Assembly (NCBI GenBank): GCA_001599295.1
Contig: BCGN01000007.1
Coordinates: 1,105,791 to 1,169,790, forward strand
Length of the DNA: 64,000 nucleotides
Reading direction: 5' to 3'
Origin: Sporopachydermia quercuum
Lineage: Eukaryota > Ascomycota > Sporopachydermiomycetes > Sporopachydermiales > Sporopachydermiaceae
Below are positions 24,930 to 58,607 of the stretch, in pieces (position 1 is the first letter of the stretch; each line of letters starts with the position of its first letter). The notes below the pieces were generated by a model. That model was not told the DNA's origin, did not search any database, and was given only the letters and a program-made list of their open reading frames with translations. A program made the translations under genes and the position numbers.

Positions 24930-26698
24930 TCAGATATTAACAGACTTATGGAAGTCCTTACCGGCGTAGATGGCCTTATCACCGAGTTCTTCCTCAATTC
25001 TCAAGATTTGATTCAACTTGGCCAAACGTTCGGATCTAGCAGGGGCACCAGTCTTGATTTGACCGGATCTCAAACCAACAGAGATATCGGCTATAGTGGT
25101 ATCTTCGGTTTCACCAGATCTGTGGGAAACCATGACACCCCAACCAGCAGCATAAGAGTCCTTGGCGGCTTGAATAGATTCAGTAAGAGTACCAATTTGG
25201 TTGACCTTCAGTAATAAACCATCAGCACACTTCTTTTCAATGGCTTCCTTAATTCTGAGAGGGTTGGTGACGGTCAAATCATCAGCAACAATTTGGATGT
25301 CAGTGTTGGCGAAGAAATGGGTCCAGGCATCCCAATCGTCTTCAGCGAAAGGATCTTCAAGGGAAACGATAGGATAGTCCTTGATTAATTCAAGGTATAA
25401 ATCAGACAATTGCTGACCAGTCAACCACTTGGAAGGGTCAGAGTTAGGGTTCTTGAAGTCTAAATCGTACTTTCCTTCCTTGTAAAATTCAGAAGAGGCG
25501 GCATCAAGAGCAATACCGACCTTTCCTTCGTAACCAGCTTGCTTGATAGCGTTGAAAACGAGATCAAGAGCTTCTCTTGGGGATTCGATATCAGGGGCAA
25601 CACCACCTTCATCACCAACGTTACCAGCAGAAGTACCGTAGGTCTTCTTGGCCAAAGACTTCAAGATTTGGTAAACTTCAGCGCCGTATCTAAGACCTTC
25701 AGAGAAAGAAGGAGCACCAAAAGGAACAATCATGAATTCTTGGATGGCAAGGGCACCGCCAGCGTGGGAACCACCGTTAAGAACGTTTTGGAAAGGAACA
25801 GGTAAAACGTATGGCTTAGGAGAATCAGCCAAGTCAGAAATATGAGCATACAATGGGACACCCTTTTGAGCAGCACCAGCCTTAGCAGCAGCAAGGGAGA
25901 TACCGAGGATGGCATTGGCACCGTACTTACCCTTGTTAGGAGTACCGTCGAGCTTGATGAGGAATTCATCGATGGCCTTTTGGTCAGTGACAGGGATGTC
26001 AGCCTTGATCAAAGCAGGTCCCAAAATGTCGTTGACGTTGGCAACAGCGGTGAGGACACCCTTTCCGCCCCACTTGGTCTTGTCACCATCTCTGAGTTCC
26101 AAAGCTTCGTGCACACCAGTGGAGGCACCAGAGGGAACAATAGCTCTGAATAAGCCTTTTTCAGTGGTAAGGTCAACTTCAACAGTTGGATTTCCTAGAT
26201 TATTGTTAGCTTGAATGTTTGAATGGTGACTTTCACTTTTGGAAGTTCTATTTTCCGGATTTCCTCACTCAATTGCTTTTCCTTCGGTGAATTTTCATGA
26301 TAAATCGATTAGCTCTCGTTCAACCGAAACCTCAATTCCGTCTAATATCAGGTGTCAGATATTTCCTATTCCTATCGTAGTGACTTCTCCAGAATATTCT
26401 TGAGACATGCATTATTCCTGCGCAATTATACACATCCACTGCCAGCTATAATAAGTAGTCGCTGCAGGTAGTCAAATGATACACCAAGAGCAATTGCAGC
26501 TCTGGACTCAATTGACAGGCGGACGGTGAACAATTGAACATACAATAAAATAAGTCTCCGATGAAAGCAGAAAAGAAGTAACAAATAAGCAAGTGGAGGA
26601 AAATGGCCTATTCTCAGTTAGATCATCAATAGATCGAGCAATTCAAACTTACCACGAGAGTCGTAGACGTATCTGGAGTGAATCTTTTCAATAGCCAT
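24930..26698 (-). CDS. ENO1: Enolase (phosphopyruvate hydratase), two exons
   Basis: Exons 26653-26698 and 24930-26194 give 436 residues, the usual yeast enolase length. Exon 1 encodes [15 protein letters not shown]; the split Gly codon joins to [10 protein letters not shown]. The enzyme interconverts 2-phosphoglycerate and phosphoenolpyruvate in the cytosol. Catalytic and metal residues are visible: SGAST loop, [31 protein letters not shown] (catalytic Lys) and [12 protein letters not shown]. The intron is 458 nt with donor GTAAGT, a GCTAAC branch-like word and acceptor CTAG. The upstream DNA has a TATA box and a long pyrimidine tract on the coding strand, as in strongly expressed yeast genes. 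Codon use is highly biased (GGT, AAG, TCC, GAC), also suggesting high expression. Whether this is the only enolase gene cannot be told here. Confidence 0.97.
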
Positions 26699-33684: not shown

Positions 33685-35748
33685 TTATTTATCAGAATTG
33701 TCTTCCTTTTCTAATTCATTCAGAAAGAAAGTCTCGTGTGATTCTAAGCTTGATTGAACGTGTAGTTTGAAATTAATAATAAATTCAATCATACTTTGAA
33801 CTTCACGATGCATTGCCTCTCTGACCGATTTTAGATTTCGTTCAAGCTTATTATACTCCATAGTTACTGTTTGATACCTTTGTTCAATGCTCATGTTGCT
33901 TTTCTGGAGATCTTTACTCATTTTACTTAGTTCTCTCTCCAAACGTTCAATCTCAGCGTTGGATGATGATAAATCAGCGCTAGTTGTTTCGTATAATTCT
34001 TCGTAGGAAAGCTTTTCGCTATTCAGCTTAGCTTCCAGTGCTTCAACTCTTTCCTTCTTGTCAATGAAAGACTCATTCATCAAATCTAGCGTTTCCTGAA
34101 GTTTGATTGAATCATCTTGTAGTCTATGAACAACATTTGCAACTTCATTTCTAATATTCTGTAGTTTAATTCGGAAATCCCGGGTTAAGTCTTTTCCTTG
34201 TAAGAGTTGATCAGGCTTTAGTCCCAGTTTATCTTCAGATAACAAGTTGTCCATCGTCACTTCAAAGTTGGTATCATTTTCACCACTGAATCGTGAAATC
34301 GCTGACCGAATTTTATATATTTGAGTGTTATACTTATCTATGTGTTGGATTAGAGAACTAGCAAGCTCAGACACCTCGTTTTCCTTTCCTTGCATTCGCT
34401 TTTCCAGTTCAAAATGTTTCTCATCAATAGATTCTTTGATTTTGAGTAATCGTTCATTTTCATTGTTTATTCTGTCAATTTCGGCAGGTTGTAAGCCCTG
34501 CTGCGCTATCTGCTTATTCAACTCTTCTTTCTCTTTTTCATATTTGATTTGTAGCTGCTTGATATTCTGGATTTCTTCTTCAATACTGCGGATGGTATTT
34601 TCTGTTTTATTCTTCTTGGACTCCAGTAGTTCAGTAAAAGCTTGGAATTTTTCAATATCACCTTCCAAAGTCTTTGCTTTCTTTTCTGCGGCCTCTAAGA
34701 ATGACGAGTATTTAGAGATTTCCCTTAGTTCATTCTCCAACGCAGTGTTTTCTTCGTTCAATTCCTTTATCATATCATTCAGGGGCCCATTGATTTGATT
34801 CAGTTCTTGTTCCAACTCTTCTAAATACAGCTGTGACGATCCTTCTTCGTCCGCCATGTAGCTGGCGTATGAGTTAATGAAGTACTGGGTTATTAGTTGG
34901 TTGGTTCTAGTAGATTCTGTTTCATCGTCCAGTTCATAATCATGGTTATCGAACTTATCCATAGTAGTATTGAGTTCCACCAGCCAGTGCAACACACCTA
35001 GAAATATATGCCAGTTTTGGCCGCCCACTGCGGAGATTTGGGACTTGTTTATGCTTTCTAAGTAAGGATAACAAATAGATTTCAAAATGAAAAACACTTC
35101 GAAATCAATTGATCGCGTAAACTTATAGCCAGGGTCTAGTTTCCTGTAGAGCCATTGAAAGATGATGACAAAATCCTTTTGCGTGGGACTTCTAAGCGTT
35201 TTCTGGTTTAAAGGATACTTCATTTCTAACTCAAATCGATGAGACTGTAAAAATGCCATAATTTCTTCTTGCATCATCTGTTGATATTGCTTATCTCTTA
35301 GTGGTCTTGGATCCTTAGTAAGAGTGCTGCCAGAACCAATGATGGTTCCAACACCTATTCCCATATTTATATTTCCATTGCCCATCCCAAACGACGACGG
35401 TCGCTTCTTTGCTGATGAAGGAGCATAACTATTTCTGAAACTACTTCTTTTGGTAAGATTGGCCCCACTGTTATTCTCTTTATCTATGTCCATTGACATA
35501 TTACCTCCAGAGCTATTTNTAGGTATTCCCATAGACTTCTGAGGTAGAACAGATAGCCTGCTGTTGGTGCTAAACACTGGGGCTCCAACTGTGCTCTGTC
35601 TCATGTTGACAGCTAAAGATCGACTGGAGTTTGAAGCCGAGCGCTTGAGGGATGATGTTGGCTGTGGGATATGAGATGTGTTTTGGTCTAATGGTTGCAA
35701 TGGATTTGACGCTTGAGAGCGTCTGTAGTTAAATAAATCCTGTGACAT
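33685..35748 (-). CDS. NDC80: Ndc80/Hec1 kinetochore protein
   Basis: A 687-residue protein, almost the length of yeast Ndc80 (691). The N-terminal 120 residues are a basic, Ser-rich tail, the Aurora B-regulated part in the family. The calponin-homology domain (about 130-275) contains DPRPLRDKQYQQ, PTQKDFVIIFQWLYRKLDPGYKF and a VGGQNWHIFLGVLHWLVEL end. The rest is coiled coil to about 680, with a non-helical break around 490-510, where family members carry the loop region. Ndc80 pairs with Nuf2 and, with Spc24/Spc25, binds microtubule plus ends. Single exon, start at the first ATG. It faces PAN6 across about 1 kb of shared upstream DNA. Confidence 0.96.
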   Translation of the reverse strand: MSQDLFNYRRSQASNPLQPLDQNTSHIPQPTSSLKRSASNSSRSLAVNMRQSTVGAPVFSTNSRLSVLPQKSMGIPXNSSGGNMSMDIDKENNSGANLTKRSSFRNSYAPSSAKKRPSSFGMGNGNINMGIGVGTIIGSGSTLTKDPRPLRDKQYQQMMQEEIMAFLQSHRFELEMKYPLNQKTLRSPTQKDFVIIFQWLYRKLDPGYKFTRSIDFEVFFILKSICYPYLESINKSQISAVGGQNWHIFLGVLHWLVELNTTMDKFDNHDYELDDETESTRTNQLITQYFINSYASYMADEEGSSQLYLEELEQELNQINGPLNDMIKELNEENTALENELREISKYSSFLEAAEKKAKTLEGDIEKFQAFTELLESKKNKTENTIRSIEEEIQNIKQLQIKYEKEKEELNKQIAQQGLQPAEIDRINNENERLLKIKESIDEKHFELEKRMQGKENEVSELASSLIQHIDKYNTQIYKIRSAISRFSGENDTNFEVTMDNLLSEDKLGLKPDQLLQGKDLTRDFRIKLQNIRNEVANVVHRLQDDSIKLQETLDLMNESFIDKKERVEALEAKLNSEKLSYEELYETTSADLSSSNAEIERLERELSKMSKDLQKSNMSIEQRYQTVTMEYNKLERNLKSVREAMHREVQSMIEFIINFKLHVQSSLESHETFFLNELEKEDNSDK

Positions 35749-38781: not shown

Positions 38782-41700
38782 CTATACAATAACCCCTGAA
38801 GCTATAGACCTACCATCCTTCCGAAGAACTATACGGCCTAAATCCTTATTCTTATACGCAGACTCCAAAGGAATCGAACCATCAACGATTTGAATCTCAA
38901 CTAATGCACAGCTTCCACTACTCAAATGGCGAGCGTTCTTCTTCAATTCGTTTCCTGTTTGTTTATCCAATGTTGCTTTAATCTTAGAAATCTTGCCTGG
39001 TAAATTAACACGACCTCTATGAACCATAACAGGAGTTCCTACTAATAAAGGTCTTTTAATAGTAAACACTAGCAATTGACAGTCGAATTTTTGAACAGAT
39101 TCAACTACATTATCAGCAGGACATAAAATATCACCAGCTGCCAGTTCAACAAGGTCTTCGCTGGTTAAACCTTTCAAATCAAGCACTGGGTTCTCTCCTG
39201 ACACGGCTATTTCGCATTTCTTATCGTCAATAGTGATATCTGTTACTACAGCTTCTTTCCCACTAGGGGCAATCACGACATCATCACCGGTTTTCACTAC
39301 ACCGCAGTTTACCCTTCCCTGGACAACTAGAGTATTTCTATGTTCTTTCATGTACACATCAAACACATCTAACCTGAATGGTACATCATATTGACGATTA
39401 ATGGCCTTAATGCTTTCTAAGTTATGAAGAAGAGTTCCTCCTGTATACCATTCGCCTATATGAGTATCAGGATCAGGTTCATTTACCACGTTGAATCCCG
39501 TTAAGCCTGATACTGGTATGAAAGAAACATCACTGAGAGAGAAACCTGAAGCAACTAAGAAATCGCCTAATTTCTGTTTAATTTCTTGATACCTTTCTTG
39601 AGGAGCTGCTACAACGTCTATTTTGTTGACAGCAACAACAAGTTTCTGGATGCCTAGAGATTTCACAAGAACCGTGTGTTCTTTCGTTTGCCCGTCGAGA
39701 TCGAATCCTGATTCAAAAGCATTAGGAGAAGCGTCAATGACTAGCAGAGCAACGTCAGCTTGACTGACGCCAGCAATCATATTAGGCACGAAATCCTGAT
39801 GCCCAGGAGCATCAACAATGGTGAATTTTGTTGTTTTAGTTTCGAAAGAGCTCATACAAATGTCAACTGTGACACCGCTGTAAGATTTGTTAGTATTGTA
39901 GTATTGATCGTAAATAAGGTTCAGTAGTGCATCATAGTGCATATAGAATATGTAAATTAATACATAGACTTGCATTATCATCCATCCGCCCTCATTAATA
40001 TTCGTCAAATGGTACTTACTGAGCACGCTCATCAGCAGTTTGATCCAAAACCCAAGCAAGAGCAAAACTGCCCTTTCCAATGTTCTGGCTTTCTTTCCTC
40101 AGCTGTGCTATTGTCTTCTCGTCAACTGCACCAACATCGTATAATAATCTACCCATCATAGTAGACTTCCCAGCATCAACGTGACCAATAACAACAAAGG
40201 ATATAGTGTTTTTTTCAGCTTTACGGCTGATTTCCTTCTTCACATCAATCTTTGTGTTAGAAACATTGCCTTTCTTCTTCCGCTGGTTCCCAGTGCTAGT
40301 AGAGTTAATATCAAGCTTCTTGATTCCATCAGCTACATTGCTATTAGCATTGAAAGCAGCTTGCTGAGCCTCAAGCACTTTGGCATCTGGCGATGGATTG
40401 GAAAATCCTGCTTTTGCCTTCTGGCTTGTTTTGGACACTGGATATAAAAGACAGGATATGTTAGAAGATTGTAAATAGTTGGGATGTTCAATGGTACGAT
40501 TAATGGCTGCAGGGATATTCGATATGAGGAAAACAGAGATTGATGAGTTTGGGCTTATGGATTGCAGTTTTGGATTGGTGAATAATGTGTTATTGCACAG
40601 TTCCTCAAGCGATTTTTGTTTGTCTTTGATTACCTGATGAGGGAAACGAGTTTCAGTAGAAGTAGCTACAGAAGCTTTAGCTCCCTTAGTGCCATTAGAG
40701 CCAGCAGGGCTAGCGTCATCGAAATCAGAGGAATGTTCAGTGTGTTGTTTCCGCTTATATTTCAATTTCGCCAGACTTCGTTTCGTAGAAGTAGCAGAGT
40801 CTAATGATTCGACTGTGCTTGATGAGCTTGATTGTCTGAAAAGGCTTAGCCTGCTTTGAGAAATGGGGTTAGGATTGGTCCCTGAGGAGTCAGTGGAAGA
40901 GCGTGGCAGATCACGTGATCTGGTGATCTTTCCAGTCAAGAAAGTGTCCTCNCTGGAGCTGTCTCCGCTACTAGCATTACTATAACTATGGCTCTGGTTC
41001 TGGTTCTTATGCTTAGTTCTGAAAGCTGCTAGTCTATTTGATGGTTTCTCGGCTTTTCCTAACTCCCGGCTTCCTTTCTTTGCCAACAGCAGCTGTTCCA
41101 GTTTAGAAAGAGGTTTCTGCCGTTGATTCATTGACTCATCAGTACCAATTGACGTCTGGTGTTCTTGTAGCTCCTGCTGTTCATTATCTTTCTGTAGTAT
41201 ATCATCACCATGAGCCCCAGTTTTCTTTTTCTCTCTTAATAGCGAAAGCTTTGAAGTCAATTTCGACTTTGAAGCTATTTCTGAACTTGGAACATCTTCA
41301 CCACCTAAATAAGCCCGAAAACCCAAACCCTTTTAGAATGTGTTCCTAATAAGCAACGAAGAAGAGATAAAATAGAATAAGAATAAATGAGAAAAGGATT
41401 AAAGGCATCAACAGGATATGCTGTTGTATGCATGATTCAAAGAAATATAGAAAGGTGATTTACGCAAATCATACATACCAGTAGTTGGCTTGAGTTTTAG
41501 CTTATGTTTAGTCTTTAACACTTGGAACGACTTATTCACATCAAAGTACTGTAACCATAGAACGTCTCTCAGCTCATCGTCGGAAATTGAATGTTTATAA
41601 TCGTTTAATTTTGCCTTCAAGCTTGGCAAAAGCTTGTTTATTTCTTCTTCATCTTCAGGGGTTATTTCTATAGTTGTTAGTACTGACCGTCCAATGNAAC

Positions 41701-42019
41701 GAGACACTAGAGATGTTGATGCAGAATGTGACATGCTGCAAATCACTCAACAGTCTAATAGTGAATATTTGTTGCTTATCTTATTATCCAACGGCACTTA
41801 CCGTTCTCGTCGCTATAGTGATCATCGCTATAGTATTCCAAGTCTAAATAATGTAAATAGTTAGCAAAGGCAAATTAGACACTATACATCTCTAACTATT
41901 TACTAACAATGATGCTCATTGCAATAGCTTTCATCTTCGTATACTCAGCTATTTCTATCCTTATTTCACCAGCTCACTTTTGCATACATACCATCATCGT
42001 CATAATCAAGTTTACCCAT
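38782..42019 (-). CDS. HBS1: HBS1/SKI7 translational GTPase gene, five exons, two probable splice forms
   Basis: Exons 41992-42019, 41802-41843, 41479-41667, exon 4, and 38782-39877. Exon 4 can start at 41304 (long form, 879 residues) or 40437 (short form, 590 residues); both acceptors leave the same phase. The short form has the Hbs1 layout: acidic N-terminus (MGKLDYDDDDLEYYSDD), small N-terminal domain (DELRDVLWLQYFDVNKSF), then EF1A-like GTPase with GHVDAGKST (about 171), DQTADERAHGVT, DAPGHQDF and NKID, and beta-barrel domains ending LRKDGRSIASG. Hbs1 with Dom34 rescues stalled ribosomes. The long form adds 289 Ser/Lys-rich residues with repeated [SN][KR]LxxLF-like motifs, as expected of a Ski7-type exosome-bridging region. 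Introns use GTAAGT/GTATGT; branch sites are TACTAAC or variants. Known family biology: several yeasts make Ski7 and Hbs1 from one gene by alternative splicing. That this gene does so is inference from the sites. Confidence 0.93.
40438..40466 (-). other. Alternative 3' splice site for the short HBS1 form
   Basis: On the minus strand a branch-like TTCTAAC is followed by a pyrimidine-rich stretch and ATCCAG, with the exon beginning at 40437. It lies inside the long open exon 4. The join to exon 3 completes a Val codon and leads straight into the conserved segment before the GTPase domain. Its branch and tract look stronger than those of the upstream acceptor at 41305-41306. Confidence 0.75.
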
Positions 42020-45848: not shown

Positions 45849-48800
45849 ATGACCAGTATCAACAACAATGATACCTCTGCCACTTCTGCAACTTCTGGGA
45901 ACTCTGGTAGCTCTTCTAGCAGTGACCTGAGCCAAAAGATAGCTACAATTCTCACTGATGAATCAAATGCTGTCAATACGACTTTTGCTGCTCAGATAAT
46001 GAAAATATGTCAATCCCAACAAGATGTGACCTCGTTTATCAATGTTGCAAAGGTCCTAGGAAAGTTCTCTAATGACAAGCTGAGCGCTGTATATAAGTTG
46101 GTGAAAGATAGTAGTGGAGGTTCAGGGATAAAAAAAGCTGTTGCAACAATTGAGACTGCGACTCCGACTGCTATTCCTACTGGAAACGATGATTCTACTG
46201 ACAGATATACTAAGAAAGCACTATCAACAGGGAAAAGCTCACTTTTAGATTATGATGAGCAAATCGAAGATGACGAGCTTGCGTCAACTCCAGTGATCAA
46301 GTTCAAACGGCAAAACAAATTCTTTGCTAAAACAGCGGCATCATTAACTTCAGGATCAGGAAAGAAAAGAGTGAAACTGGATTTTGACGATTCTTCTGAA
46401 CCAGAAAGTGACGTATCCTCTACAATTAATAGTCAATATATTCCTACAACTCTTCCTGCTACTAGCAGTAATGCTGACAAGCCGGGTTTATCTCAAGCGG
46501 CTTCTAAAAGACTTCAAGAGATCCAACAGAAAAGAAGGCAGAAAAACCAGGATTTCGCTGCTACTTCTACTTCAACCGCTACTTCTACTAAATCTATTTC
46601 CAGAGTGTCATCTTCTGCTAATCCAACTTCTCTGTATCATGACGGCGACACCAACACCTACGCCGACACCGACCCCTATTATCCTGGTGATATACCTGAG
46701 GAAGACACGGAAACTGCCATAGCATTGGAACGCGATTGGTACGGGGCCGATGAAACCACTGGCTCTCATGTCCCCGGTGACGATTCTCACAACCCGTTCA
46801 CGGACTCCACCATATATAACACTACAGAAGAGTCCAATTTAGAGAGAAAGTTTCAGAAGAGGATCTCTCTGGCCCGTAGAGAGAAAATACGTGATAACGA
46901 GCTGTGGGAAGACAACCAGTTACGCCAATCTGGTGTTGCAGGCACCAGAAGAGCCAATATTGACGTGAACGAGGACTCTAAAGACTCCCGGATAATCCTT
47001 ACTGTGCACCACTTGGTACCGCCTTTTCTCGATGGCAGGAACACATTCACGACTCAGAAAGACCCCGTGCCAGCGTTTCGCGATAGCCAGAGCGATCTGG
47101 CGGTGATAGCAAGGAAAGGAAGTGCGCTGGTGAGAGAACGGAAGCAGCAGAGAGAAATCCAGCGCCAAGCAAGACAGGCAGCTTCGCTAGAGGGCACTTC
47201 CCTGGGAAACATGCTAGGCGTGGAAGACAAGGTGAAAAAGGAAGTTTTACAACACGAGAGAGAAAACAACAGCGGAAAAGAAGCTGGCGATAGCAAATTT
47301 GCTGATCACTTCAAGAATAGCAGCAATTCCACCAGATTGGCCCTTATAAACCAACGGAGATCCTTGCCTGCGTTTGCTGTGCGCGAACAGCTTCTCACAG
47401 TAATAAAAGATAACCAGGTGACTATCGTCATAGGCGAAACTGGTTCAGGAAAGACCACCCAATTGACTCAATATCTCTACGAACAAGGCTACGGCAAACA
47501 GGGCATGATAGGCTGCACCCAGCCGAGAAGAGTAGCTGCTATGAGTGTGGCTAAACGGGTCAGCGAGGAAATGGACGTTAAACTGGGTTCTACGGTTGGC
47601 TATACAATTAGATTTGAAGATATTACCAGCAAAGACACCGTGATCAAGTATATGACCGATGGCGTGTTGCTTCGGGAATCTCTTATAGATAAAGACCTTG
47701 ATAAATACTCTTGTATTATTATGGATGAAGCTCACGAGCGAGCATTAAATACCGATGTACTATTGGCACTGTTTAAACGTATATTGACGAGAAGACGGGA
47801 TCTGAAGCTGATAGTAACGTCTGCTACTATGAATGCAGACAGATTCTCGGAGTATTTTGGCACGGCGCCGCAGTTTACTATCCCTGGGCGTACGTTCCCA
47901 GTTGACGTTTTGTTTGCCAAATCTCCCGTAGAGGATTATGTGGCGGCAGCTGTGAAACAGGTTCTCACGATACATTTCCAGGGATCACCGGGAGACATTT
48001 TAGTGTTTATGACTGGCCAGGAGGATATCGAGGTCACGTGCGAGGTAATAGCGGAAAAGATGTCAACTTTCGAAGATACTCCCAAACTGGAAATTCTGCC
48101 TATTTACTCGCAAATGCCCGCAGATTTGCAAGCGAAAATCTTTGATAAGGCAGAACCCGGTGTCCGGAAAGTGGTGGTGGCTACAAACATTGCCGAAACG
48201 TCTTTAACCCTGGACNNCGTAATGTATGTTGTAGACTGTGGCTATAGCAAGCTGAAGGTGTATAATCCGAAGATGGGAATGGACACTTTACAGGTTGTCC
48301 CAATATCTTTGGCTAATGCCAATCAACGGTCTGGCCGGGCTGGGAGGACGGGAAAAGGGACAGCGTATCGTCTGTACACGGAACGGGCATCTCGTGACGA
48401 AATGTACCCTCAGACAATTCCCGAGATCCAACGGACAAATTTAAGCAATACACTGCTACTGCTGAAATCACTAGGAATCAATGATTTGCTCCAGTTTGAT
48501 ATAATGGACCCGCCGCCGGAAGATACTATGACAGCAAGTTTGTATGATCTCTGGGCAATTGGAGCATTGGATAACTTTGGGCAGCTTACGCCGTTAGGCA
48601 GGAAAATGTCTACTTTCCCTATGGAACCAACCCTATCTAAGCTTTTGATAGAATCGACAAAATATGGCTGTTCAGAGGAAATGGTGATCATTGTTTCTAT
48701 GTTATCGGTACCAAATGTCTTTTATAGACCAAAGGAAAGAGAAGAGGAGTCTGATGCGGCAAGAGAGAAGTTTTTCGTACCGGAATCTGATCATTTGACG

Positions 48801-49472
48801 CTTCTACATGTTTACACACAATGGAGAGCCAATAGGTATTCAGGAGTATGGTGTAGTAGGCATTTCCTGCATAATAAATCTTTGCGGAGAGCAAAAGAGA
48901 TCAAAGAACAGCTGGAATCTATTATGGTGAAGCAACGGTTTCCCATTAAATCCTGTGGCTCCGATTGGGACGTCATAAGGAAATGTATATGCACTGGATA
49001 CTTTTCTCAAGCGGCCAAAGTGAAAGGATTTGGAGAATATTCAAGTCTGCGTACAGGGATGGAGATGAAGTTGCATCCTACCAGTGCTTTATATGGGTTA
49101 GGCTATTTGCCTGATTATGTAGTGTATCATGAATTGATTCTCACCACTAAGGAATATATGAGCGTGGTTACTGCTGTTGATGCCCGCTGGCTGGGAGATT
49201 TCGGCGGAGTGTTCTATGAAGTGAAAGAGAAGGAATTTATTGCAGGAGAAAGCGAGGCTGTTGTGAAGCAGACGTTTTCACGCAAAGCTGAGCTGGAAGC
49301 AAAGATAGCTGCTGATCGGGAGACAATGGAGCTGCGGAAATCGGTTGACAAGGTTAAAAAAAACAATAAGGATAAATCTATATCAAACAGTGTTTCGGTA
49401 GGTTATTTGACGGGTTCCAATGGCAGAGGAATTCGGAATAAACGTGGAGGCCGAGTCCGAAGAGCGTTCTGA
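45849..49472 (+). CDS. PRP16: Prp16 DEAH-box splicing ATPase
   Basis: A 1207-residue single-exon gene. Prp16/DHX38 remodels the spliceosome between the two splicing steps and proofreads branch-site use. The first 480 residues are a Ser/Thr- and charge-rich N-terminal region. The helicase core carries GETGSGKTT (about 528), [16 protein letters not shown] (about 625), TSATM (about 657), [18 protein letters not shown] and [10 protein letters not shown] (about 827). The winged-helix, ratchet and OB-fold parts follow, with [11 protein letters not shown] and a basic RGGRVRR tail. [17 protein letters not shown] and the long charged N-terminus favour Prp16 over Prp2, Prp22 and Prp43. Two Ns at 48217-48218 fall in LDGVMYVVD and keep the frame. 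The intron-rich neighbours depend on this enzyme, though the gene itself has no intron. Confidence 0.95.
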
Positions 49473-54614: not shown

Positions 54615-57395
54615 TTACATGATAGAAACTCTCCTACTTCTAGTTACCCGTTTACTGCTCTTTCTAACCGCTGCTTCCAAACCGTTCATTTTCAAGTCGT
54701 TTATTTCATCGTCGTCGAAGTCAAAGATACTTGCAGTGTTAGAAACATCTTTCAACACTTCGATTTGGCTGGATTTCCGTTTTCTTGCTGCTCTGGTCGA
54801 AATATTGCTTAGTTGTTTGATAGGAGGAAACTCAGGATCTACACTTGAAGAGTCGGACTTGTTGATAGTGTTGCTAGTATTGCTGGCATTACTGGTATCT
54901 CTAGTTACCGGATCATCGTCCTGTTGCTTCTGCTGATCACTTTCATTATCGTTATCATTATCGTTATAAACTTTCATGCTTTCTCCAGCATTTCTTCTGC
55001 TTATTCTTCTGTTTCTAGATGATTTTCTTCTAGTGATTAAGCTGTTTCTCTCTTCTAATTGGTTATAGTTTGGTTCATTTGGCTCTGAATTGTTTTCCGT
55101 TGGCTGTATAGGCGCGTTTTCTTGTTTTATAGGACTATTATTACTGTCATTACCGTTGCTGTTGCTGTTATTGTCAGAATTAGTAGGAATAGAAGTAGAA
55201 CTAGCATTACTAGTATGAGCACTACTATCTGTTCTAAAGCTATCCCTTGTGCTTCTTCTACTGTTTCTAGAGCTACTGCCCCCCCTAATATGCTTATCTT
55301 CTGGCTCTTCTTCCTTTACGACTTCCCCGTTTGCCCCTCCTGCCCCACTAGTCCTGTGTCCTGCTTTACTCTTACCCCGTTTCCTTTCCTCGTCTATCAG
55401 TATTAACTCTATTTCATCATCCGCATCGCAGATCGCGGGGGCCAAAACTGCCGTCGGTCTCCGCAGCTTCGTATTAAGACTCTGTTCCTTATAGTTCACT
55501 GGTTTTCTTTGCCTTCGAATCCGGCCTGTAAATGTGTTACTGCTGTTACTATTACCGTTATTGCTACTACCATTTGCATCATGCTCTTCATTATGTAGAC
55601 TGTTGATACTATGAGGCATTTTCTCAGTAGTCAAGGCAATAGACAATGCTTTGTTTCGTGAGCTTTTAGGTGGAGGAGGTTTTCTGGGTTGAGGTGGCTG
55701 GGAGGCGGTAGGAGAAGCGTTGATGGCGTTTAAATGGGTAGTTGAATGGATATTTAGCTTGTTGTTCGCATGGCTATAGTTGATGCATCTATCAGAAAGA
55801 GCTTTTCTAGCTGAATGGCCTAACTCGGAGTCAGTATTGTTGGTACTATTGCTACTGTTGATACTCACTGTACTGTTTTCCTTACTGTACTTTCTCCCCT
55901 TTCTATCCTTATGATTCTCCGGCTTGTTCATATTATTACCCCTATCGTTGATTCCTTTTCCCTCGCCTATGCATTCATTTTCCTTGTTGTTAAACACGGT
56001 GGAGTTCCTTCTGGCATGTTTTGAGGTTGTTTTGTTCTTCTTGGTTGTTTCTCTGTTGCTTGGTGGCAGAATGTGTATTTCCTGCCGAGTGTCGATAGGG
56101 CTGATGATAGCTAATTGGATAGGAATATCAGGAGAGTCGGGAGACTTTGTAGAAGTATCGGAAAGAGAAATAACGGAATTAATGTTATTTAGTGATTTGT
56201 TACCTTCTTTGTTTCCTTTTTTGTTTTCATCTTCATTTATTTCCTCTTCTTCTTCTATTATAACGTCTGTTGTAGATAGAGACAGTGAGTCTTGGTCGTA
56301 GATAGAGCTGTTGATAGGAATAGGAACAGAAATTACAGAAGAGTTAGAGTTAATGTTATTATCTTCATTATCGGTTGTCGTTTCCCTTAATTCATAGTGA
56401 GAACTTTCATTCCTGGACCTATTTTCATTGTTGTCAGTTTGAACATCACCTTCACTACTATTATTACCATTAGTATGCTCAGAATCTGTGGTTTTCTCAG
56501 CTATAGCTTTTTCAGTGATATCAACGCACATTTGGTATTCATTTTCCCTGTTGCCATTGCTGCAAGAATCACCATTATAGCTGCCGTCAGCATTGTCGCT
56601 ATGACCCGCATCGTTATAGCTGTTCCCACTATTTCTGTTGATTACGGTGTGGCTTATAATCTCAAGCTCCTCTTGCTGATTCGCACTTTCATTCTCAGCC
56701 TCATTTGCCATCTCGCTTTCCGTGGGAACAATGACAATTGACTTCCTTCTGCTTGATCTTCTCCTTTTAGCAATCTTATGNCACTTTTCATCTTCCGGAG
56801 AAAAAGGTTTTCCTTTGGCCATTTTATTCTCATATAATCTAGTTTCTATACTAAGATGAGAGCTAGAGATGTTCTCTCTAGTTAATTCATTGCTTGGAGG
56901 GTCCTGCGAACAGTCTTTTGCCGCTGCATTACTTGGTGATGGTCCTAGCTCTAAGCTATCCGCAAGAGCAGACCTTTGGAGCAACAAAGGTATTCCTGTA
57001 GATGGCGCACTCTTAATAGCTTTTCTTTCTTGTAATATTTCTCTAGATGTTCCGTTCCAGCTGTTTAGCCCTTCGTTTTCTCTCAATTCGGCAAACACAT
57101 TGCTTATCTCTTCGAACTTTCCAACTACAAATTCCTGTAGGTAATTTAGGTGAGCTTCAAGCTTCTGTTGCTGATGCTCCAATGCTTCATTTTTCTCACT
57201 TCGCAGTTGCAGGTTTTCCCTTATCAACTGCGAAACTCTTTCTTCCAATGAGGATATCTTAGACATCATGGAAGAGTTCGCTTTGGCAAATGCTCTGTTC
57301 TGTAGAATCAGTTTCCTTCTTGCGAGGTCCAAATGTTCTATTTCCAGTGTCTTCTGGCCTGGGATCAGTTTATTATCGATGGCTAATTTGGCCAT
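54615..57395 (-). CDS. SGO1: Shugoshin (Sgo1)
   Basis: A 926-residue shugoshin, longer than S. cerevisiae Sgo1 (590). The N-terminal coiled coil (about 20-110) has the family look: NRAFAKANSSMMSKISSLEERV and SQLIRENLQLRSEKNE, the PP2A-binding helix. A long Asn/Ser/Asp-rich disordered centre follows. The C-terminal basic SGO motif is clear in GRIRRQRKPVNYKEQSLNTK, which binds phosphorylated histone H2A at centromeres. The extreme C-terminus repeats basic RRKSSRNRR and RAARKRKSS patches and ends VTRSRRVSIM. Shugoshin protects centromeric cohesin and senses tension. The frame is open further upstream, but the first ATG is at 57395 (MAKLAIDNKLIPG); a short upstream exon is possible. Divergent from DAD2. 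Confidence 0.9.
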   Translation of the reverse strand: MAKLAIDNKLIPGQKTLEIEHLDLARRKLILQNRAFAKANSSMMSKISSLEERVSQLIRENLQLRSEKNEALEHQQQKLEAHLNYLQEFVVGKFEEISNVFAELRENEGLNSWNGTSREILQERKAIKSAPSTGIPLLLQRSALADSLELGPSPSNAAAKDCSQDPPSNELTRENISSSHLSIETRLYENKMAKGKPFSPEDEKXHKIAKRRRSSRRKSIVIVPTESEMANEAENESANQQEELEIISHTVINRNSGNSYNDAGHSDNADGSYNGDSCSNGNRENEYQMCVDITEKAIAEKTTDSEHTNGNNSSEGDVQTDNNENRSRNESSHYELRETTTDNEDNNINSNSSVISVPIPINSSIYDQDSLSLSTTDVIIEEEEEINEDENKKGNKEGNKSLNNINSVISLSDTSTKSPDSPDIPIQLAIISPIDTRQEIHILPPSNRETTKKNKTTSKHARRNSTVFNNKENECIGEGKGINDRGNNMNKPENHKDRKGRKYSKENSTVSINSSNSTNNTDSELGHSARKALSDRCINYSHANNKLNIHSTTHLNAINASPTASQPPQPRKPPPPKSSRNKALSIALTTEKMPHSINSLHNEEHDANGSSNNGNSNSSNTFTGRIRRQRKPVNYKEQSLNTKLRRPTAVLAPAICDADDEIELILIDEERKRGKSKAGHRTSGAGGANGEVVKEEEPEDKHIRGGSSSRNSRRSTRDSFRTDSSAHTSNASSTSIPTNSDNNSNSNGNDSNNSPIKQENAPIQPTENNSEPNEPNYNQLEERNSLITRRKSSRNRRISRRNAGESMKVYNDNDNDNESDQQKQQDDDPVTRDTSNASNTSNTINKSDSSSVDPEFPPIKQLSNISTRAARKRKSSQIEVLKDVSNTASIFDFDDDEINDLKMNGLEAAVRKSSKRVTRSRRVSIM

Positions 57396-58607
57396 GGCAT
57401 TTTCAAAAGCTAGAACTGGTAGCAAGTTTGGAAGTAGTATAATAGCTGGGTTAATAGCTTGGGAGAAGTAGTCAGAAACTTTTTGTGTATGGTAAGTGAG
57501 TGTGGAGGATGTGCTGAGCTGGGTAAGTTACTATTGATAGTGCTGGAAACGTAAAATGCTGGTATTTGATAGCGATGACTGATTCTCTGGTATTTTTAGC
57601 GTTTTCTCCTTCTGCTTTTGCCGTTGTTGCTTCTATTCGCGCACTCCTCCTATAGAGGTGATCCGATGTGTGTGTGGTGATGTGCCGTCAGGCGATCGAC
57701 TGCTATAGATTTCTTGGCTAAAAACAGCTCTTGAAAAGCCTAAATTGTAGTTTTCCAGATAAAACTATTTGCCGATCAAATAAACTGCTTTAATTTCTTC
57801 TAAGCATATGGAAAATAACAGATTATCCAACAGTTGATGCTCTCTTGTATGTGGTTGAGAAAAAAAAGGGCCTTCGAAAGAATGACGGTTTTGTGTTTAT
57901 GTGCTTCCTGAATGGGATAAAAGAACGATAGGAATATATGATTATGTGATTTATATTTGGAAACTTTCTGATTATGTAATCTAGTAAGTGAATTTGCTGG
58001 AGGTCAATATAGTGAATGGCTAGTGATGTGGTATTAGGGTTCTTCTAATATTTACAGATAAATATTAATTATTAATACCAAGAATTGGATATCACTTTTA
58101 CTTGTTTTTCTTTTCATGGAGCTTTATACTCAGTAATTGATTAGCATACTGTTTACCTATTTCCATTGTCCTAGAAAAGCCGAGATAGTTGCTTTCAATA
58201 TCATCTCCGCTTTACCCAAACACGCCCTTGAAATGAGACGCAATATTATTCTTCTCTCATGTGACTTTTGTTTATCTATCCTATCTTTTCTCCTTGCCGT
58301 TTTCTTCTTTTACTGTAGCTATTCTAACTATTATTAGTGAATGTGATTACTAGCTACAACCCTTTTATTGTTGTTACTGCAAATAGATTATTTTGCAACG
58401 AATACTATTGAATAGCTACTGTTTTATCTCAGTCTTGAATCAGCGTTCCATCACCAAATAATCAACTGTTTGAAAACCTGTACCGGAAACTCTCAGTAGA
58501 CACAGTATCATATTCTCTGCATTGTATGATTCATTATTGAAGATCTGCTTGCCGGAATAAACAAACAAATACTGAGATTTCTTTCAAATATTAAAACATC
58601 CTCAACA
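57396..58607. other. Divergent promoter region, SGO1 / DAD2
   Basis: About 1.2 kb shared by two chromosome-segregation genes. A 66-codon plus-strand frame at 58137 is unrecognised. No other gene or RNA was seen. Confidence 0.6.

Follow-up and report, generated by a model that had tools for sequence, protein, structure and literature searches.

A probable dual HBS1/SKI7 gene with two 3′ splice sites in Sporopachydermia quercuum

Does a single gene of Sporopachydermia quercuum encode both Hbs1 and a Ski7-like protein through a choice between two 3′ splice sites? The question is raised by an HBS1 gene within a 64,000-nucleotide stretch of DNA (hereafter the window), for which the initial annotation had proposed this arrangement. 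Marshall et al. 2013 (PMC3597508) describe the production of Hbs1 and Ski7 from one gene of Lachancea kluyveri through alternative 3′ splice sites, with evidence from rt-PCR, western blot and complementation, and with the elements S1 and S2 located between the sites. The same use of sites is reported there for Aspergillus nidulans and Saitoella complicata on the basis of rt-PCR and sequencing, with the alternative intron just upstream of the element S3. The premise that dual SKI7/HBS1 genes with alternative 3′ sites are established is consistent with that account of three ascomycetes.

Gene structure and the two acceptors of intron 3

The gene was read from the sequence as five exons on the minus strand, running from position 42019 to 38782 of the window.

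41992..42019, minus strand: exon 1, with the start codon; common to both isoforms; donor GTATGT
41802..41843, minus strand: exon 2, common to both isoforms; acidic stretch that opens the HBS1_N domain
41479..41667, minus strand: exon 3, in both isoforms; bulk of HBS1_N; ends in phase 1; acceptor after TACTAACAACTATAG
41305..41478, minus strand: intron 3, near form; acceptor TTTAG with the AG at 41306-41305; nearest branch-like site TTCTAAA, not CTAAC
40438..41478, minus strand: intron 3, far form; acceptor CCAG with the AG at 40439-40438; TTCTAAC branch site upstream
40438..41304, minus strand: Ski7-type insert of 289 codons; translated in the long isoform, part of intron 3 in the short one
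40020..40437, minus strand: exon 4, part in both isoforms; S3 motif FSNPSPD and start of the GTPase
38782..39877, minus strand: exon 5, in both isoforms; remaining GTPase (DAPGH kept), later domains and stop codon
41346..41348, minus strand: additional acceptor TAG; pyrimidine tract (42/50) the strongest of those examined; leads to a stop after 99 residues

The donor of intron 3, GTATGT, follows directly on the phase-1 end of exon 3 at 41479. Splicing to the near acceptor starts exon 4 at 41304 and gives a protein of 879 residues, and splicing to the far acceptor starts it at 40437 and gives 590 residues; the isoforms differ by 867 nt, or 289 codons, containing no stop. The initial annotation had described a phase-1 end of exon 3, two phase-matched acceptors, a 590-residue short form and 289 stop-free added codons, and each of these was reproduced, the last as the difference between 879 and 590 residues. 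The locus has the layout of a dual gene, with one donor, two in-phase acceptors and an open frame between them. Full retention of intron 3 is predicted to lead to a stop after 109 residues. Downstream of the in-frame stop, three YAGs precede the first motif of the insert and all are in phase (exons starting at 41304, 41280 and 41274), so the exact start of the insert is uncertain by 8–10 residues.

For intron 2, an acceptor with its AG at 41737-41736 was rejected because it breaks the frame; the acceptor TACTAACAACTATAG, ending at 41668, restores it and yields the 590 residues. The assembly contains a single N base within intron 2 (sequence line 41660) and another within the insert (sequence line 40940), the latter producing one X in the protein. 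Other genes of the window are enolase (24930-26114), NDC80-like (33685-35748), DEAD/DEAH-type helicase (45849-49472) and shugoshin-like (54615-57425).

The identity of the common parts was assessed using Pfam, where every domain scored above its cut-off: HBS1_N (residues 12-81) with 47.6 bits (cut-off 26.4), followed by GTP_EFTU with 160.9, GTP_EFTU_D2 with 31.4 (cut-off 30.3) and an eEF1A-type C domain with 75.0 bits. An HBS1_N domain followed by an eEF1A-type GTPase and its later domains identifies the gene as HBS1, and the best solved-structure matches were Hbs1 chains (mammalian, S. cerevisiae and other). GHVDAGKS (G1) and DAPGH (the catalytic His of G3) were invariant across a 13-row alignment. 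Both HBS1_N and the GTPase domains lie in exons of both isoforms, in agreement with the proposal of a common GTPase body. From the codon that spans intron 4 (39877/40020 junction) the protein reads ERAHGVT, and the 12 other aligned proteins carry R before GVT.

Among the 120 best of 633 matches to the long form, the best named ones (Blastobotrys adeninivorans, Nadsonia fulvescens and Trichomonascus ciferrii) were 47-50% identical over 57-59% of the query; for the exon 5 protein the closest relative reached 49% among the best 120 of 983 matches. The GTPase part was at most 54% identical to the 27 relatives placed in a 28-row tree, where the window protein sat on a long branch outside any well-supported small group. 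The database matches and the tree together suggest a yeast that branches deeply within the Saccharomycotina.

The 16.4 Mb assembly was searched in six frames, with only the best candidates scored. It contained one HBS1_N match, and the next-best matches to the long protein, all at 35% identity, were two copies of eEF1A and one of eRF3; the eEF1A copies lie at G000:C2:1092696-1093997 and G000:C6:374407-375708. The insert together with S3 matched only itself in this genome. A separate SKI7 gene elsewhere, which the initial annotation had named as an observation that would speak against dual coding, was not found in the assembly by this search, which a strongly diverged copy could escape since only the best candidates are scored. 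The genes for SKI2 and MTR4 are both present.

Coding character and motifs of the insert

The insert contained no stops in its coding frame, compared with 13 and 33 in the other two forward frames. Dinucleotide shuffles of the insert had a mean of 15.4 stops and a minimum of 4, and none of 2000 was free of stops. Codon use resembled that of the common exons more closely in the coding frame than in the other five frames of the insert, and its G+C content was 42%, as against 32-38% in introns 1, 2 and 4 and the near form of intron 3. These properties bear on the possibility that the locus has one productive isoform, either because the insert is a former Ski7 exon that splicing now skips or because the long form alone is made. 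A weak near acceptor and a diverged insert count in favour of that explanation, and yet it would leave the kept frame and the presence of both acceptors unexplained. Together with the 289 stop-free codons of gene-like usage, the far acceptor, which lies inside coding sequence, is still in phase and still has TTCTAAC as its branch site, and two S1-like sites (below) are preserved in the insert. We regard a single productive isoform as very improbable.

The initial annotation had pointed to four motifs of the type [SN][KR]L..[LF] as suited to Ski7. All four are present, at residues 104, 153, 176 and 237 of the long form; the mean in shuffles was 0.11 and at least four occurred in 0/20000, a figure that is flattering because the pattern was chosen after sight of the sequence. 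The motifs were also scored with matrices built from relatives: S1 from the SKLAxL-type sites of 52 relatives, S2 from 38 PSxFxxxLF-type sites and S3 from 55 relatives. The names S1 to S3, taken from Marshall et al. 2013 (PMC3597508), are our own putative assignment of the elements scored here, made from their position and from yeast Ski7. With the S1 matrix, sites from residues 152 (5.7 bits) and 103 (3.9 bits) were both above the 95% shuffle level, and the better of them (from residue 152, with SKLEQL) was equalled by 8 of 3000 shuffles. The motifs at 176 and 237 scored below even the shuffle median, so that two of the four proposed motifs behave as S1 and two do not. The two acceptors enclose two S1-like sites. 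Three CTG codons at 41087-41101 (minus strand; residues 155, 158 and 159 of the long form) correspond to leucines of the S1-like SKLEQLLL, an indication that CTG is decoded here as Leu and not as Ser.

The position of the better site raises a further possibility. A single ATG occurs in frame within the insert (41131, residue 145), and it lies 8 residues before SKLEQL, as might be seen if Ski7 were produced from an alternative first exon, with transcription starting inside intron 3, translation beginning at this ATG and the near acceptor unused. This would follow C. albicans, for which Marshall et al. 2013 (PMC3597508) report an alternative start, by 5′ RACE, in place of a near acceptor that is missing from this species and three relatives, and the branch-like site of the near acceptor in S. 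quercuum is weak. However, the 57 codons from the near acceptor to the ATG are open, where about three stops would be expected at the shuffle rate, the other S1-like site (residue 103) sits upstream of the ATG, and in-phase YAGs exist here that are absent from the C. albicans group as described in that paper. On balance, an alternative start appears unlikely.

No match to the S2 matrix was detected between the acceptors, 1537 of 3000 shuffles scoring as high. S3 (F..PSPD) was found downstream of the far acceptor as FSNPSPD from residue 387 of the long form, with 25.0 bits and 0/3000 shuffles reaching this score; it begins 11 residues past the far junction, within the part common to both isoforms, and continues as PSPDA (residue 394), where all 12 of the remaining sequences in the 13-row alignment have PSPDD.

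How these elements are distributed was surveyed in 233 proteins from the listed database matches, of which 165 contained GHVDAGKS. Where more than 250 residues precede GHVDAGKS (99/165), F..PSPD occurred in 98 of the 99 proteins; where the front part is shorter (66/165), it occurred in 18 of the 66. After the 98 had been thinned to 55 long relatives, an S1-like motif was recognized by pattern in all 55, with every one of the 72 copies upstream of S3; 43 relatives had a single copy and 12 had at least two. An element NTVYLP before S3 was dropped as a marker, with a site in only 8 of the 55 relatives.

A profile built from the window region and seven relatives matched the S. cerevisiae Ski7 chains 8qca, 8qcf, 5g06 and 5jea (E 1.7e-8 to 1.4e-6), and lower in the same list the unrelated chain mL77 (E 0.1) stood above a human HBS1L isoform (E 3). 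The match to Ski7 owes much to S3, which is in both isoforms, and to the seven relatives in the profile. When the window was left out of the profile, the short N-terminus scored 28.6 bits and the long N-terminus 20.6 bits. The insert alone scored -8.5 bits against the seven-relative profile (best of 500 shuffles, 4.7) and -12.7 bits against an insert-only profile of relatives (best shuffle, 3.3). Because the whole-insert profiles fail, the designation Ski7-like depends upon the S1-like sites, position and architecture rather than on overall similarity. The comparison of the insert with Ski7 and its relatives that the initial annotation had suggested is therefore positive for the S1-like sites and negative for S2 and the whole-insert profile, and a role of the insert as an exosome/Ski adaptor is predicted from short motifs.

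Splice signals and the choice of acceptor

The 5′ ends of the introns in the gene are GTATGT or GTAAGT. CTAAC precedes the acceptors of introns 1, 2 and 4 and the far acceptor of intron 3, whereas the near acceptor has only CTAAA. To place this difference in context, 15 donor candidates bridging two open frames in 264 kb of the genome were compared with 201 controls: CTAAC was found near the acceptor in 7/15 candidates and 31/201 controls, and CTAAA in 1/15 and 23/201. In simple signal windows over the same 264 kb, ACTAAC occurred 67 times versus 43 in one shuffle, and all CTAAC 128 versus 143. CTAAC as a whole is not clearly enriched, and its lack at the near acceptor is therefore weak evidence. 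Alternative use would fit a weak near site paired with a strong far one; a site that is not used would look equally weak.

The fifty bases preceding the near acceptor contain 26 pyrimidines, those preceding the far acceptor 33, and those of the other introns 27-29. The acceptor at 41348-41346, 41 bases upstream of the near one, has 42, the strongest tract of the ten acceptors examined in the gene. One extension of the dual-gene reading is a three-way switch at intron 3 between Hbs1, Ski7 and unproductive 41348-41346 acceptors, with an insert carrying at least two S1-type docking copies in place of the single copy seen in 43 of the 55 relatives. We consider this doubtful; if it were true, splicing to the third acceptor, which ends the frame after 99 residues, would reduce the amounts of Hbs1 and Ski7 alike.

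Counted against the dual reading are the CTAAC-less near acceptor, the better tract 41 bases upstream, the diverged insert, the absence of an S2 match, the two named motifs that do not score as S1, the PSPDA of S3 and the debt of the Ski7 profile match to S3 and the seven relatives. Taken together with the domains, the S1-like and S3 elements, the place of the far junction and the failure to find a separate SKI7, the data are nevertheless best explained by one HBS1/SKI7 gene that encodes both proteins by way of two 3′ splice sites, a reading that we judge to be probable (roughly 0.8) and that agrees with the central proposal of the initial annotation. One pre-mRNA would carry one donor after 41479 and two acceptors. 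Splicing to the far acceptor would produce a 590-residue Hbs1 that rescues stalled ribosomes. Splicing to the near acceptor would produce an 879-residue Ski7-like protein, in which the added 289 residues are predicted to bind the Ski2-Ski3-Ski8 complex and to assist in holding the exosome. Both acceptors are presumably used, and the binding partners given for each isoform are likewise presumptive.

Comparison with known HBS1/SKI7 genes

The arrangement most closely resembles SKI7/HBS1 of L. kluyveri as described in PMC3597508: a single gene, alternative 3′ sites in one intron, a common N domain and GTPase, an S1-type motif between the sites, and a far site just before S3. It differs from that gene, which has one intron and contains S2, in having four introns and no detected S2, and we infer the use of both sites here. 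Like the genes of A. nidulans and S. complicata in the same paper, it is a multi-intron gene with the alternative intron at the same position upstream of S3; unlike them, where use of both sites was demonstrated by rt-PCR and sequencing, it is read from sequence alone. With C. albicans HBS1/SKI7, as reported there, it has in common a single gene, the kept far acceptor and Ski7-like sequence upstream, the difference being that a near acceptor is present here and an alternative transcription start is used in C. albicans.

A similar pair was found in the annotation records of the filamentous ascomycete Orbilia oligospora, where HBS1 is recorded as P0041 (753 aa) and as P0124, "variant 2" (560 aa); no other two of the listed matches compared had C-termini that were identical. 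As here, a single block (193 residues) holding S1-like motifs separates the long record from the short one, and the downstream edge of the block lies 13 residues from F..PSPD, compared with 11 here; unlike here, the Orbilia insert has PSGFAKSMF, of S2 type.

Human and plant HBS1/SKI7 also produce both proteins from one gene through alternative splicing, as presented in PMC6143672 and PMC11540850. According to these sources, human SKI7 and HBS1L have residues 1-144 in common and differ in their C-terminal domains, and Arabidopsis SKI7 has a zinc finger, both unlike the gene described here. The output of plant SKI7 is reported to be lowered by unproductive splicing (PMC6143672), and if the unproductive 41348-41346 acceptor is used in S. 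quercuum, it would be a fungal case of this plant SKI7 regulation.

Two-way splicing of HBS1/SKI7 was described for fungi in 2013 (PMC3597508), and the present gene is probably a further example, not a new phenomenon. It adds a lineage to an old alternative-splicing event in which two RNA quality-control factors are encoded by one gene, and it indicates that dual HBS1/SKI7 genes may be read directly from unannotated genome sequence.
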